A DNA stretch of 56,881 nt from Erysipelotrichaceae bacterium (lineage in GTDB: Bacteria; Bacillota_I; Bacilli_A; Erysipelotrichales; Erysipelotrichaceae), in assembly GCA_030694975.1 (NCBI GenBank), contig JAUYTU010000026.1, positions 1 through 56,881 on the forward strand, read 5' to 3'. Below are positions 49,549 to 56,881 of this stretch, in pieces. Position numbers and translations under genes: made by a program. Position 1 is the first letter of the stretch; each line of letters starts with the position of its first letter. The notes beneath the pieces were generated by a model. The model searched no databases. It saw nothing but the letters and a program-made list of their open reading frames with translations, and was not told the origin of the DNA.

Positions 49549-49569
49549 AAGAAGGGTCATGCCCTTCTT
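49549..49569. terminator. Bidirectional terminator
   Basis: AAGAAGGG-TCATG-CCCTTCTT between the convergent MazG-like and sortase genes, with A/T tracts on both sides. Confidence 0.85.
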
Positions 49570-50299
49570 AGTTATTGATAAGTCGTGCGTGGATGATGAT
49601 CCGTCCATCATCAATGGAGTAATCACAAGAAACCAAAGTCAATATTTGCGTAACATCCGTCATATCAATATCGATTTTATAGAGTGAGCGACCTTTGTAT
49701 AATTTGATCATCGATGCCATACTTTGGTCATTTGCCGGAACTTTCATTCCTGAAACCGTAGCTTCCGCAACATATACGGAAAATATTTCATATCGTCGAA
49801 TACCTTCCAATGTTCGGATCTCTATGATTTCCTTACTTGGCAGATAACTCGATTTTTTGTATCTATCCAAAAAGCCGAACATCGCATCATTTCTCATTGC
49901 ATGGCCATAAACCATGACATGTTTATCTGAAAAATCTTTGGCGTTGCGATAATCCATAAATATCGCACCGTATTTACTGCGCTCTTTTTGAAAGTTTCTG
50001 GTCAGGTAATAACTGTTATTAGTTCCCTTTACCATCGGATAATCAATTTCAGTACCACCGATGGATATCCAACCGGCATAATCTTTATTGATCCCAAGAA
50101 ACTGTTGATTAAATTCAGCATAATAATCTCGAGTTGTGTCCGTATTGGTAACCGGCGGAACAAAGGTATTGCTTATTTCAACGAGTTCTTCTTTCTGCTC
50201 CTTAAACTGACTGTATTCCCAATATTCAAAGCCTAAAAGACCGACGGATGTCAGGATAAGTAAAACAGCAAACAATCGGACAATCTTACGTATATTCAT
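49568..50299 (-). CDS. Class B-like sortase
   Basis: A 243-residue membrane-anchored transpeptidase: one N-terminal helix (about 7-24), then the sortase barrel. Catalytic residues are H133 in V-Y-G-H-A-M, C225 in T-L-V-S-C-D and R233. The G-W-I-S-I, I-D-Y-P-M-V, F-M-D-Y-R-N and M-F-G-F-L-D-R-Y segments are those of class B enzymes. It is the only sortase in the window and the natural candidate to anchor the LPDTS proteins at 21606, 55285 and 56268, although LPDTS is best known as a class D substrate. Likely co-transcribed with the gene upstream. Confidence 0.92.
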   Translation of the reverse strand: MNIRKIVRLFAVLLILTSVGLLGFEYWEYSQFKEQKEELVEISNTFVPPVTNTDTTRDYYAEFNQQFLGINKDYAGWISIGGTEIDYPMVKGTNNSYYLTRNFQKERSKYGAIFMDYRNAKDFSDKHVMVYGHAMRNDAMFGFLDRYKKSSYLPSKEIIEIRTLEGIRRYEIFSVYVAEATVSGMKVPANDQSMASMIKLYKGRSLYKIDIDMTDVTQILTLVSCDYSIDDGRIIIHARLINN

Positions 50300-50314
50300 A
50301 CAATCACCACCATT

Positions 50315-50863
50315 CTAGGGCAAATAAAGCCATCCGCCCATGGCTGCATCCATCCATTCACCATCCGGAACAATGACCCACTGAATGCCCACTAAGTTTA
50401 CCCGGACTTCGACTGCCCGTGTTACCAATGGGATATCAGGATTGTACATCGCCGAGGCAAATGCCTGAGAAAGCAAAGAATCATTCAATATATCTTCAAC
50501 GCTGTTAAATGTGAGATCATGTTGTTGTTTGACCTTTGTGAACACTTGAGCAACGTCTCGGTTGGTAATCCAACAGTTAACAATATAATACCCATCTTCT
50601 TTTCTATAATCAATCACTTCGACCGAAAGATTTCGCGCAATCGCTTCTTCAATCCCTAAATCACCCACAGAGAACACAGCCATCAACTGCAAATAATCCG
50701 GTTCTGTAAAATAGTTAATCGCTGTGGCATAGTCTTTCTTAACGATAGACTCAATACCTTTGACCGCTGCTTCATCCGCTCTTTCCCAATTTTGCCACGT
50801 ATAAAATCCCAGTCCTGCGACCAGAAGAATCACAATCAATAACCATCCGACACTCTTCTTCAT
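50315..50863 (-). CDS. Membrane-anchored protein of unknown function beside the sortase
   Basis: The 182-residue protein has a single N-terminal membrane helix (about 5-22) and an outside domain resembling the NTF2/lumazine-binding-like fold of DUF4878-type proteins (the stretch A-A-V-K-G-I-E-S-I-V-K-K-D-Y-A-T-A-I-N-Y-F is typical). The sortase starts 15 bases after it stops, so they form an operon; a helper or envelope-stress role is possible. I cannot assign a function. Confidence 0.7.
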   Translation of the reverse strand: MKKSVGWLLIVILLVAGLGFYTWQNWERADEAAVKGIESIVKKDYATAINYFTEPDYLQLMAVFSVGDLGIEEAIARNLSVEVIDYRKEDGYYIVNCWITNRDVAQVFTKVKQQHDLTFNSVEDILNDSLLSQAFASAMYNPDIPLVTRAVEVRVNLVGIQWVIVPDGEWMDAAMGGWLYLP

Positions 50864-50892
50864 CCATGATCCATCCGTTCTAATTTACATTT

Positions 50893-51912
50893 TTAAAGGA
50901 CTTCTGCCAAGGATACCGAGCATTGAGTCAGTCGTTCGATAACGACATCACACCAATGATCAAACTCAACTTCATCCACTTGAAGACTTGCGTCCTTCTC
51001 GACACTATCCAAATACATTTGAATACCTTTTGCTAATGGGACGGTTAGCGGTATTTCCCCAATGACCGACTTAATTTTCGAATTGTCAAAAATCACGGAA
51101 TATTGCTTATCGCCGACAATCGTTGACTTAAAGTCATACGTATGACTCATGGCTAACACCGACGAAGGTATGTACACCGGTCGAAGACCCACATGATAAT
51201 AATCGGCGATGATTTGGTAAATGTGATTCCAGCTGAGAGATTCCTCACTTGTCAGCTGATACACCTCTCCCAATGTTTCTTCTTTAAGAAATATTTTGGA
51301 TATGGCTAATGCAAAATCAATGCTGTGCATGCTTGCCCAAACCGAAGTACCATCACCATGGATCAGAACTTTCTTATTGCGTTTGATCCGTTGAATGACC
51401 GGATAAATCTCATTTCCTTTGACGCTCACCGGAATTCGGGTTTCATCATACGTTTGTGACGGTCGGATAATGGTGACCGGAAAATGTTCGCGAGTGAATG
51501 CTGCCAAGAATATTTCTTCCGAAGCTTGCTTGTTACGGCCATACGAACTGAAGGGATTGTTTTTATCCGTGTTCTCATCAAACACTACCCGACCTTCACG
51601 ATTGTATGTTGCAACCGTACTGATAAAGATGAATTGTGTCATTTTGTCCTTAAAAATCTTAATCGACTTTTCTGCCTGGTGTGGATTAAAAATCACGAAG
51701 TGAAGAACGACATCAAAAAATCGGTCATTTAATAGTTCTTTCATATTTTCACTGTCAAATGCATCTGAAATCAATACTTCGGCGTTTGCCGGGACTTTAT
51801 CCGGTTGATTACCACGATTGATAATGGTCAACTCCACATCTTCTTTTGTTGCTAAAAGCTTACAAAGGTTGGTACTAATGGTCCCAGCACCTCCGACTAT
51901 GCATATTTTCAT
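50893..51912 (-). CDS. NAD-dependent epimerase/dehydratase family protein
   Basis: A 339-residue extended short-chain dehydrogenase. The nucleotide motif G-G-A-G-T-I-S-T is at residues 6-13 (the usual G-x-x-G-x-x-G with S in the last place), and the Y-x3-K catalytic pair is in S-Y-G-R-N-K near 135, preceded by a Ser/Thr at about 110. Such enzymes act on nucleotide sugars or related substrates. The ATG at 51912 follows GAGGTG. Neighbours do not reveal the substrate. Confidence 0.85.
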   Translation of the reverse strand: MKICIVGGAGTISTNLCKLLATKEDVELTIINRGNQPDKVPANAEVLISDAFDSENMKELLNDRFFDVVLHFVIFNPHQAEKSIKIFKDKMTQFIFISTVATYNREGRVVFDENTDKNNPFSSYGRNKQASEEIFLAAFTREHFPVTIIRPSQTYDETRIPVSVKGNEIYPVIQRIKRNKKVLIHGDGTSVWASMHSIDFALAISKIFLKEETLGEVYQLTSEESLSWNHIYQIIADYYHVGLRPVYIPSSVLAMSHTYDFKSTIVGDKQYSVIFDNSKIKSVIGEIPLTVPLAKGIQMYLDSVEKDASLQVDEVEFDHWCDVVIERLTQCSVSLAEVL

Positions 51913-51970
51913 ATTAAGCACCTCACTATCATTATACGACAATACCAACGATTTCGCACAATCTCTGACT

Positions 51971-51994
51971 AAAAAAGCTGGGTTTCCCCAGCTT
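51971..51994 (-). terminator. Terminator of the degenerate GGDEF gene
   Basis: AAGCTGGG and CCCAGCTT form an 8-bp stem; on the minus strand it runs into TTTTTT. It directly follows the stop at 51999. Confidence 0.88.
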
Positions 51995-55986: not shown

Positions 55987-55995
55987 TTTAGACTT

Positions 55996-56026
55996 AACTG
56001 TCAGTATAATGCTGGCAGTTTTTTTA
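55996..56026 (+). terminator. Gene B terminator
   Basis: AACTGTCAG and CTGGCAGTT pair (one G-U) around TATAATG, followed by TTTTTT. So gene C behind it needs its own promoter. Confidence 0.88.
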
Positions 56027-56102
56027 TGGAAAAACTCTTGCTAAAGTCGGAGCATATCGATTGTGCACGTTCATTCAATGTGATAACATCACAATATAAA
56101 TA

Positions 56103-56185
56103 AATATAAGGGTAAACCAGTCGAAAGGCTGGGACACAAAGTTAGGCATCTAATGCATTATGTTATGCGATGATCGGCCAACCGC
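56103..56185 (+). promoter_or_regulatory. Cyclic-di-GMP-I (GEMM) riboswitch aptamer, copy 2
   Basis: Second class I aptamer: GGGTAAACC-AGTCGAAAGGCT-GGGACACAAAGTTAGGC, nearly identical to copy 1 in the binding core and differing in stems in compensated fashion (CCACTC/GACTGG versus CCAGTC/GGCTGG). G is again found at the ligand-contacting position. It precedes gene C. Confidence 0.9.
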
Positions 56186-56219
56186 AAATAAGTGGTTAGC
56201 CGTTTTTTGTTGCTAACCA
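56176..56219 (+). terminator. Riboswitch terminator and antiterminator, copy 2
   Basis: GGCCAACC (56176-56183) pairs with GGTTAGCC (56194-56201), followed by G and six T's. The alternative stem is TGGTTAGC (56193-56200) with GCTAACCA (56212-56219), a perfect 8 bp. The two folds exclude each other, as in copy 1. Confidence 0.7.
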
Positions 56220-56267
56220 TCGACTAGATTTTTGGTTAGTTACGCAGAAATGCGATGAGGTGAAAAC

Positions 56268-56881
56268 ATGAGAAAGACATTTATATTTGTAGTATTACTT
56301 CTAAGTTTGTTTGCTTATAAGGTCAGTGCGGCCCCCAATACGGGACCACTTCCAGAAAATGGCGTTAAAGTAAACTTCAATGCAGACGGGACCTACAATT
56401 CAATTGAAGGCGATGGTTGGATGGTTGATCACCATCATGACCATGATGGTTTGATGGTTGATGAACACCATGATGGCCTGATGTTAACCAAAGATGAAGT
56501 AATCATTCATCTGATGCATTATGTATTCAATGATGATGGAGAAATCATCGGATTTCATTGGATGATCGAAGGAGCTACTGCAATTTTGTGGGTCAAACAT
56601 GGAACGACCTCAGAAATCTACGGTGAAGGTACAGAAGGAGATTTCTTGACTAGCGATAACAAGCAAGTCAGTAATGCCGTATTCTTAATCGAAATCATCG
56701 AAGATGAAGAAGAGGAAGTAGACGAAGAAGAAGAGGTTGACGAGGAAGAAGTAGTCGATGAAGAAGAAGAAGTAGTCGATGAAGAAGAAGTAGTCGATGA
56801 AGAAGAAGAAGTAGTCGATGAAGAAGAAGTAGTCGATGAAGAAGAAGAAGTAGTCGATGAAGAAGAAGTAGTCGATGAAGA
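56268..56881 (+). CDS. Acidic-repeat surface protein with His-rich insertion (paralog C), partial
   Basis: An open frame from ATG 56268 (site GAGGTG) runs off the right edge with at least 204 codons. It has the same signal peptide (1-21) and conserved domain as paralogs A and B, but an insertion at about 54-71 with D-H-H-H-D-H-D-G-L-M and E-H-H-D-G-L-M, a tandem duplication rich in histidine. The tail from about 145 is built of alternating V-V-D-E-E-E-E and V-V-D-E-E-E units (39 bp per pair, near-perfect at DNA level). The sorting signal is beyond the window. Controlled by the second c-di-GMP-I riboswitch. Confidence 0.9.
   Translation, partial: MRKTFIFVVLLLSLFAYKVSAAPNTGPLPENGVKVNFNADGTYNSIEGDGWMVDHHHDHDGLMVDEHHDGLMLTKDEVIIHLMHYVFNDDGEIIGFHWMIEGATAILWVKHGTTSEIYGEGTEGDFLTSDNKQVSNAVFLIEIIEDEEEEVDEEEEVDEEEVVDEEEEVVDEEEVVDEEEEVVDEEEVVDEEEEVVDEEEVVDE
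56752..56881 (+). repeat. 39-bp tandem DNA repeat in the acidic tail
   Basis: The unit GAAGTAGTCGATGAAGAA with alternating extra GAA codons repeats every 39 bases with little or no variation and continues past the edge. Such repeats favour slippage and recombination and so allele length change. Confidence 0.85.

Follow-up and report, generated by a model that had tools for sequence, protein, structure and literature searches.

Does the 7.3-kb stretch between positions 49568 and 56881, in which genes for c-di-GMP synthesis, riboswitch-controlled surface proteins and a sortase lie close together, constitute a functional module or a set of coincidental neighbours? The earlier note on the window (the whole stretch of 56,881 nucleotides that was analyzed) had described here a class B-like sortase, an active-looking GGEEF cyclase, a degenerate cyclase paralog, a DUF2812 membrane protein and two riboswitch/surface-protein units side by side. 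This observation was confirmed with regard both to the identities of the parts and to their clustering (Table 1), and the interpretation placed upon it is partly supported. Two genes between the sortase and the cyclases had been overlooked, and a third LPDTSD gene (gene D) lies elsewhere in the window.

Table 1. Positions of the identified and predicted features within the window
Feature	Position	Strand	Evidence or remark
Gene D, third LPDTSD paralog, without riboswitch	21606-22448	-	adjoins type IV pilus genes
Class B sortase	49568-50299	-	TIGR03064, active-site alignment, sole PF04203 match
182-aa protein, one predicted N-terminal membrane helix	50315-50863	-	conserved beside sortase
NAD-dependent epimerase/dehydratase-like protein	50893-51912	-	PF01370 1e-20, synteny
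Predicted intrinsic terminator, boundary of degenerate cyclase and epimerase-like gene	51971-51994	-	AAGCTGGG-GAAA-CCCAGCTT-T
Degenerate GGDEF membrane protein (SDGEF at the A-site, RLVD at the I-site)	51999-53111 (also given as 51999-53123)	-	PF00990 2e-12
Putative promoter element, degenerate cyclase	53137-53164	-	TTGACAT-N8-TTTGTGAGATATT, conserved in five species
DUF2812 membrane protein	53220-53756	-	PF11193 6e-16
Putative membrane diguanylate cyclase, GGEEF and RSVD I-site	53785-54897	-	PF00990 1e-35
Putative promoter element, cyclase, matching that of the degenerate paralog	54922-54949	-	genome-wide motif count
Gene B promoter-like site, TTGAAC-N17-TATTAT	55076-55104	+	consensus match, aligned with the other five leaders
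c-di-GMP-I aptamer, gene B	55118-55209	+	RF01051, 58.9 bits
Weak predicted terminator, leader B	55196-55227	+	-8.7 kcal/mol, mismatch
Predicted antiterminator hairpin, leader B	55206-55244	+	folding, compensatory changes
Gene B, encoding a signal peptide, an Ig-like head on an acidic stalk and the LPDTSD sorting signal	55285-55986	+	sequence, fold comparison
Predicted terminator downstream of gene B	55996-56028	+	
Putative gene C promoter, TTGTGC-N17-TAACAT	56061-56093	+	palindrome TGTGATAACATCACA at 56079-56093
c-di-GMP-I aptamer, gene C	56101-56189	+	RF01051, 68.2 bits
Predicted terminator, leader C, mutually exclusive with aptamer	56176-56209	+	-13.6 kcal/mol, P 1.00
Predicted antiterminator hairpin, leader C	56192-56221	+	folding, compensatory changes
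Gene C, paralog of gene B, running off the contig end	56268-56881	+	

Riboswitches in the leaders of genes B and C

Both surface-protein genes are preceded by a class I c-di-GMP aptamer scoring above the RF01051 gathering score of 35 (E-values 3e-11 and 5e-9). Only two riboswitch loci were detected in the 2.19 Mb genome, the second one being located on another contig. An expression platform excluding the aptamer fold was predicted in five of the six leaders compared, among them that of gene C, and in a weaker form in leader B. In the five leaders, the terminator is built from the aptamer's own 3′ strand and should form in the unliganded state with -13.6 to -20.2 kcal/mol (P 0.98-1.00), a stability reached by at most one of 1000 shuffles. 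For leader B, the folding calculation favored structures other than the terminator. A competing antiterminator was found in all six leaders, with compensatory pair changes at three positions. Because the terminator needs the 3′ strand of the aptamer, the ligand should block it; according to these models both RNAs are predicted to bind c-di-GMP and to act as ON switches.

The opposite direction, in which c-di-GMP lowers expression of B and C and the surface proteins are characteristic of cells low in c-di-GMP, has a counterpart in C. difficile, where responding genes with class I riboswitches are lowered by c-di-GMP (4/7, PMC6200980), and would agree with the lack of a strong terminator in leader B. 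OFF switches are nevertheless highly improbable here, since a terminator made from the aptamer's 3′ strand in five of the six leaders should be prevented by the ligand and since the antiterminator is maintained by compensatory changes. A long-range helix joining GGUAAACC on the 5′ side of the aptamer to a downstream GGUURGCC was discarded as a terminator in view of the much higher stability of the local hairpin GGCCAACCGC/GUGGUUGGCC-U in five of the six leaders, leader B being the exception, in which the long-range fold still wins. Masking of the Shine-Dalgarno sequence was also dismissed, as its predicted accessibility is nearly equal in both states.

Surface proteins and the sortase operon

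The claim of two riboswitch-controlled LPDTS genes holds for both riboswitches and for gene B, whose product ends with ..ESLPDTSDATAGLGLLSGLFGFMMLFATKKKNLLG, but the LPDTS motif of gene C lies outside the window: the gene is cut by the contig end and no such motif is visible in the part at hand. The repeat recurs at the end of another contig (C8), together with a B/C-type LPDTSD tail adjoining ferredoxin-oxidoreductase (VOR-type) genes, a position that matches the gene order in the sister genomes G001 and G006. Since repeat, tail type and gene order agree, this is very probably the tail of gene C. Signal peptide, sorting motif, hydrophobic stretch and positive tail are all present in gene B and its orthologs, and in gene C via the C8 end only. 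LPDTSD is common to four proteins in the genome, among them that of gene D, likely a further substrate of the sortase, and an adhesin encoded at C24:187.7 kb.

The head domain of the surface proteins gave no match in Pfam, NCBIfam or PHROGs and no significant PDB match with Foldseek. VIA-align yielded a Z-score of 9.5 to designed Ig dimers, while the remaining values were about 5 or less except for one of 5.6. Assignment to a known family was dropped, and "Ig-like" is used as a fold label, not as a statement of homology.

The sortase, the only one in the 2.19 Mb genome, scored 183.7 bits against the class B equivalog TIGR03064 (curated cut-off 153.75), and its catalytic His, Cys and Arg residues align with those of C. 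difficile SrtB (structures 6kyc/5gyj), in agreement with the class proposed previously. From the co-occurrence of one sortase and four LPDTSD proteins, LPDTS would be the motif cleaved by this enzyme. The sortase operon begins with the epimerase-like gene, whose ATG is at 51912. The 182-aa protein has orthologs in G001, G002, G004, G005 and G006, and profile searches revealed no family above cut-off. Ahead of the operon, a terminator hairpin exists at the same place in five of five species, with differing sequence. Due to this conserved terminator, the sortase is unlikely to share a transcription unit with the cyclases; separate transcription of its operon is predicted.

The tandem cyclases

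The two cyclases are tandem duplicates that can be aligned over their full length. The protein encoded at 53785-54897 has the motifs of an active diguanylate cyclase, the A-site GRWGGEEF and the metal-site FDLDDFK, which are present in five of five orthologs, and by these motifs it is presumably active. In the paralog (GRWSDGEF), the A-site reads SDGEF, TDGDF or TDGEF in all five species, departing from GG[DE]EF, and FDLDDFK is replaced by FS[LF]SDIK. The RLVD I-site (RxxD, five residues ahead of the A-site) is retained in all five degenerate paralogs, whose GGDEF domain is their best-conserved part and under purifying selection. Because the I-site is conserved, the sensing function suggested earlier is plausible, and the protein is likely a GGDEF protein devoid of catalysis and probably a c-di-GMP receptor.

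It may instead be a structural partner or a mixed-dimer inhibitor of the active cyclase, with RxxD as a relic. The end-to-end similarity of the duplicates and their common promoter element would fit this, but an RLVD motif that is invariant in five species although the A-site was lost, and the GGDEF domain being the best-conserved part, make it somewhat unlikely. Moreover, mixed dimers and c-di-GMP binding are compatible with each other. The promoter element was found genome-wide at two sites only, those ahead of the two cyclase genes. For DUF2812, mentions exist in the literature, none of which concerns its function judging by title or abstract.

The locus as a putative surface-display module

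We favor, with moderate confidence, the interpretation that these genes form a surface-display module driven by c-di-GMP. The membrane-bound cyclase would synthesize c-di-GMP on some signal, its own I-site limiting the output. c-di-GMP would then bind to the class I riboswitches of the divergent surface-protein genes and hold the aptamer's 3′ strand out of the terminator, so that the antiterminator may form and transcription proceed into B and C. The exported products, each with an Ig-like head, a long acidic stalk and an LPDTSD signal, would be fixed to the wall by the sole sortase, of class B, whose neighbouring operon would be transcribed on its own. Having kept its I-site, the degenerate cyclase would most likely bind c-di-GMP as a receptor, a buffer or a partner of the active enzyme. 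What the sequence establishes is the set of parts, how they are arranged and conserved, and the conserved mutually exclusive folds predicted for the RNAs; the local cyclase would be the driver of the riboswitches. A precedent that supports this proposal is Bc2 of B. thuringiensis, a c-di-GMP-I riboswitch proven to turn on an LPXTG adhesin by way of a terminator (PMC4933901).

Conservation of the neighbourhood, the check named in the earlier note, was found in four sister genomes: G001 and G005, G002 as far as its contig reaches, and G006, where the block is divided between two contigs. The housekeeping flanks are as collinear as the locus, and conserved order was therefore rejected as proof of a circuit; as the region is generally collinear, synteny is weak evidence for a functional link. 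In the two other genus members, G003 and G004 (assemblies only 69-79% complete), no orthologs of the cyclase and surface genes were found, which counts against the module, and beyond the genus the gene order was found nowhere. The cyclase pair of G057 was discarded as a similar case, both adjacent GGEEF cyclases being intact with no riboswitch or sortase nearby, and G030, G046 and G049 contain nothing comparable in terms of cyclase pairs or riboswitch-sortase links.

It is also conceivable that the genes are neighbours by coincidence, B and C answering the cell-wide c-di-GMP pool, the cyclase pair serving something else and the sortase serving all LPDTS proteins. The genome harbors about 23 GGDEF matches and, with at least 20 of them encoded elsewhere, the local cyclase may not be what feeds the riboswitches. 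This number, the collinear flanks and the terminator ahead of the sortase operon count against the module, as does the weak terminator of leader B; coincidence is further favored by the separate promoters, the second riboswitch locus on another contig and the location of gene D and the C24 adhesin elsewhere. On the other hand, the divergent cyclase-riboswitch pair is retained in four of four sister genomes covering that spot, and the sole sortase lies less than 6 kb from the sole riboswitch-controlled substrates. We thus regard mere coincidence as somewhat unlikely. A locally insulated circuit, in which the cyclase and its dead, I-site-bearing duplicate with their private promoter element provide a local signal for the divergent riboswitches on the substrates of the neighbouring sole sortase, itself using a new LPDTS motif, is rather unlikely.

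Control of sortase substrates by c-di-GMP riboswitches is already established (PMC4591827, PMC4933901). The CD2831/CD3246-SrtB-ZmpI system of C. difficile likewise comprises a single class B sortase and substrates activated by c-di-GMP via riboswitches (PMC4591827, PMC6200980). It differs in that class II riboswitches act on the substrates, that the protease ZmpI is under a class I OFF switch and that the motif is (S/P)PXTG, and the cited sections mention no cyclase beside the substrate genes. Closer in RNA class is cap/cbpA of B. thuringiensis, where Bc2 acts as class I ON switch by antitermination on a sortase-anchored adhesin (PMC4933901, PMC7423583); this, however, is a giant collagen-binding protein with LPXTG and sortase A, and no linked cyclase or sortase is mentioned in these sections. 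The statement that no described system has exactly this layout has to be qualified by NELoc-1 of C. perfringens, in which a sortase, wall-anchored proteins and GGDEF/GGDEF-EAL genes lie close together and whose authors propose a c-di-GMP signalling system (PMC2879425). NELoc-1 is a pathogenicity locus of poultry strains with Cna-B proteins, no reported riboswitch and no degenerate tandem cyclase, and the variant layout described here is itself new. For the degenerate cyclase, PelD of Bacillus cereus and Pseudomonas aeruginosa offers a parallel, a degenerate GGDEF protein with an intact RxxD I-site that is a c-di-GMP receptor (PMC7112168). By contrast to PelD, which has a GAF domain and functions in polysaccharide export, the present locus has neither a GAF domain nor polysaccharide export genes.

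In this uncultured bacterium of Erysipelotrichia type, familiar components are thus arranged in a new way, the novel predictions being the ON switches, the I-site-bearing dead cyclase, the shared promoter element and the conserved terminator before the sortase operon. Among the papers found on LPXTS and sortases, none deals with class B enzymes judging by title or abstract; LPDTS, if cleaved, would be an unusual class B motif compared to (S/P)PXTG in C. difficile. A cyclase that is dead and nonetheless conserved, and a promoter element private to the pair, raise the question whether c-di-GMP signals locally or globally. The control of sortase substrates by c-di-GMP riboswitches would be extended to this lineage, and the compactness of the locus allows signal production, potential sensing, the RNA switch, its output genes and their anchoring to be studied in one place.

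Composition and gene order of the locus

An earlier note had described a compact c-di-GMP/sortase/surface-protein island at 49568-56881, and profile and Rfam matches recovered every part that it named, i.e. sortase, cyclase, degenerate paralog, DUF2812 protein and two riboswitches, the latter with scores (68.2 and 58.9 bits) well above the gathering score of 35. Its gene list had overlooked a 182-aa protein (orf182) and an epimerase-like protein, both encoded between the sortase and the cyclases. Two LPDTS genes had been placed behind the riboswitches. This holds for gene B, but the motif of gene C is not visible in the window because the contig stops inside the gene C repeat.

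Features of the locus and of gene D
Feature	Position	Strand	Remarks
Class B sortase	49568-50299	minus	class B equivalog model, active-site alignment
orf182	50315-50863	minus	182 aa
Epimerase-like gene	50893-51912	minus	
Degenerate cyclase paralog	51999-53123	minus	SDGEF
DUF2812 protein	between cyclase and degenerate paralog		family match
Diguanylate cyclase	53785-54897	minus	GGEEF, RSVD I-site
Putative promoter element TATTGACAT-N8-TTTRTGAGATATT	53137-53164 and 54922-54949	minus	
Gene D	21606-22448		LPDTSD, adjoins type IV pilus genes

Conservation of this neighbourhood was checked in related genomes. The order sortase, orf182, epimerase-like gene, degenerate cyclase, DUF2812, cyclase and divergent riboswitch is kept in the sister genomes G001, G002 and G005; in G006 the block lies on two contigs, with DUF2812 in the gap between them. 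All four belong to the genus of the window's own genome. In G001, G005 and G006 the next gene after the riboswitch is a surface gene; the G002 contig stops at this point. In named records these loci come from Firmicutes bacterium HGW-Firmicutes-10 and HGW-Firmicutes-19 and from an Erysipelotrichaceae MAG. A short contig of the more distant genus member G004 carries MazG, sortase, orf182 and the epimerase-like gene in order; an orthologous cyclase or surface gene was not found in this 79% complete assembly. The transporter, TrkA, oxidoreductase and VOR genes on its flanks are just as collinear as the block itself, so background synteny could explain the order seen.

The cyclase pair

The cyclase and its paralog match at 40% over nearly their whole length, far above any other GGDEF protein of the genome, which identifies the pair as a tandem duplication. 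The A-site and a metal-site Asp are gone from the degenerate copy in all five species, but RLVD is retained five residues ahead of the A-site position. Compared between the window and the other species, its GGDEF domain shows 73-80% identity (membrane part 44-60%), with a dN/dS of about 0.11-0.16 that is indicative only, as dS is near saturation. These features are consistent with the degenerate cyclase acting either as a c-di-GMP receptor in the way PelD does (PMC7112168) or as a partner of the active cyclase. Both cyclase genes have the TATTGACAT-N8-TTTRTGAGATATT element upstream in every one of the five species (ten sequences), with slight variation; in the whole genome, allowing up to three mismatches, it matched at these two sites only. 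A hairpin resembling an intrinsic terminator, whose stem differs among species, divides the cyclases from the epimerase-orf182-sortase unit.

Riboswitch leaders

Six leaders were compared (genes B and C, and one from each sister genome). In all but that of gene B, the minimum-energy fold predicted at the U-tract without ligand is GGCCAACCGC-loop-GUGGUURGCC and then the U-tract (-13.6 to -20.2 kcal/mol, terminator probability 0.98-1.00). Shuffling the intervening stretch gave an equally stable structure at most once in 1000 trials. The aptamer's 3' strand doubles as the 5' arm of the terminator stem; the two structures are therefore mutually exclusive. Once the aptamer keeps its strand, the freed GUGGUURGC is predicted to pair with a downstream arm. 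This antiterminator is found in 6/6 leaders despite differing downstream arms, with changes on both sides at three positions (U-A/A-U, G-C/A-U, G-C/A-U). As few as 0-10 of 500 shuffles were as stable in five leaders; the antiterminator of G005 (53/500) is not clearly stabler. From mutual exclusion and the conserved antiterminator, the riboswitches are predicted to be ON switches acting by antitermination, a mode shown for Bc2 of B. thuringiensis (PMC4933901). Because the terminator of gene B is mismatched and weak (-8.7 kcal/mol; 48/1000 shuffles as stable), this gene may be leaky or under different control.

Further riboswitches were noted. Three tandem c-di-GMP-I riboswitches (L006:8828-9175; G000:C10:38827-39174, minus strand) lie directly 5' of a gene for a secreted Big_2-CAP/SCP domain protein in the window's own genome (G000); triple arrays also occur in the four sister genomes, and G004 has four aptamers. 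c-di-GMP-I riboswitches are also found ahead of type IV pilin-like genes in related genomes (L127:8191-8649 in G049:C27; L055 in G030:C25). An ordinary glycine riboswitch (window 17042-17125) is located 5' of glycine cleavage genes. The -10 region of riboswitch genes is covered by the 15-bp palindrome TGTGATnnnATCACA (window 56079-56093), which also occurs at G000:C18:117294, window 33387-33401 and elsewhere. At up to one mismatch, 16 genome places were found versus none for a reversed control pattern; one site is upstream of a minor-pilin operon and some are inside genes. The palindrome is possibly a regulon operator.

Surface proteins, anchoring and proposed mechanism

The sortase, the sole one in the 2.19 Mb genome according to two agreeing searches, reached 183.7 bits (class B equivalog cut-off 153.75), and its catalytic residues (His, Cys and Arg) line up with those of C. 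difficile SrtB. LPDTSD is common to gene B, gene D, a cadherin-repeat protein on contig C24 and the end of contig C8, taken as the gene C tail. A single sortase and a motif shared by several surface proteins make LPDTS very probably its sorting motif. The C8 end carries the gene C repeat and the LPDTSD tail, then ferredoxin-dependent oxidoreductase genes, which are directly 3' of the surface gene in G001 and G006; because of this matching gene order, C8 and the window contig very probably join inside gene C.

The single surface gene of the sister genomes is orthologous to gene C; gene B clusters with the D type. For the head domain, structure prediction gives an Ig-like beta sandwich (pLDDT 79), with designed Ig dimers as the best match (Z 9.5). 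A GTDB 220 scan detected the surface-protein family only in this genus (four loci), and among 392 sampled genomes of the phylum it was present in the window's own genome only. The gene C head contains a His-rich insertion (HHHDHDGLMVDEHHDG, window 56418-56484), absent from B and D and possibly metal-binding; HLMH and GFHWM are common to its sister orthologs. The gene C stalk is a 39-bp tandem repeat with 91% matches (window 56703-56881), within which the assembly breaks, and its length may vary by slippage. Gene D, without a riboswitch, lies beside pilin and PilT-like genes (window 21606-24636; syntenic in G001), and the large cadherin/Big_9-repeat LPDTSD protein (G000:C24, about 187.6 kb; L108) adjoins a PilT/GspE-like ATPase gene.

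Sortase, surface proteins and GGDEF/EAL genes are also near one another in C. perfringens NELoc-1 (PMC2879425), for which, unlike the locus in the window, no riboswitch was reported. The principle of c-di-GMP riboswitch control over sortase substrates is established in C. difficile (PMC4591827, PMC6200980) and B. thuringiensis (PMC4933901, PMC7423583), and the novelty is the combination of parts. The weakest step of the proposed mechanism is that the local cyclase drives the switch, versus at least 20 other GGDEF proteins in the genome, which also encodes three EAL proteins. Most likely, the local cyclase would make c-di-GMP, which would turn the riboswitches ON, so that the surface proteins would be made and then anchored by SrtB.
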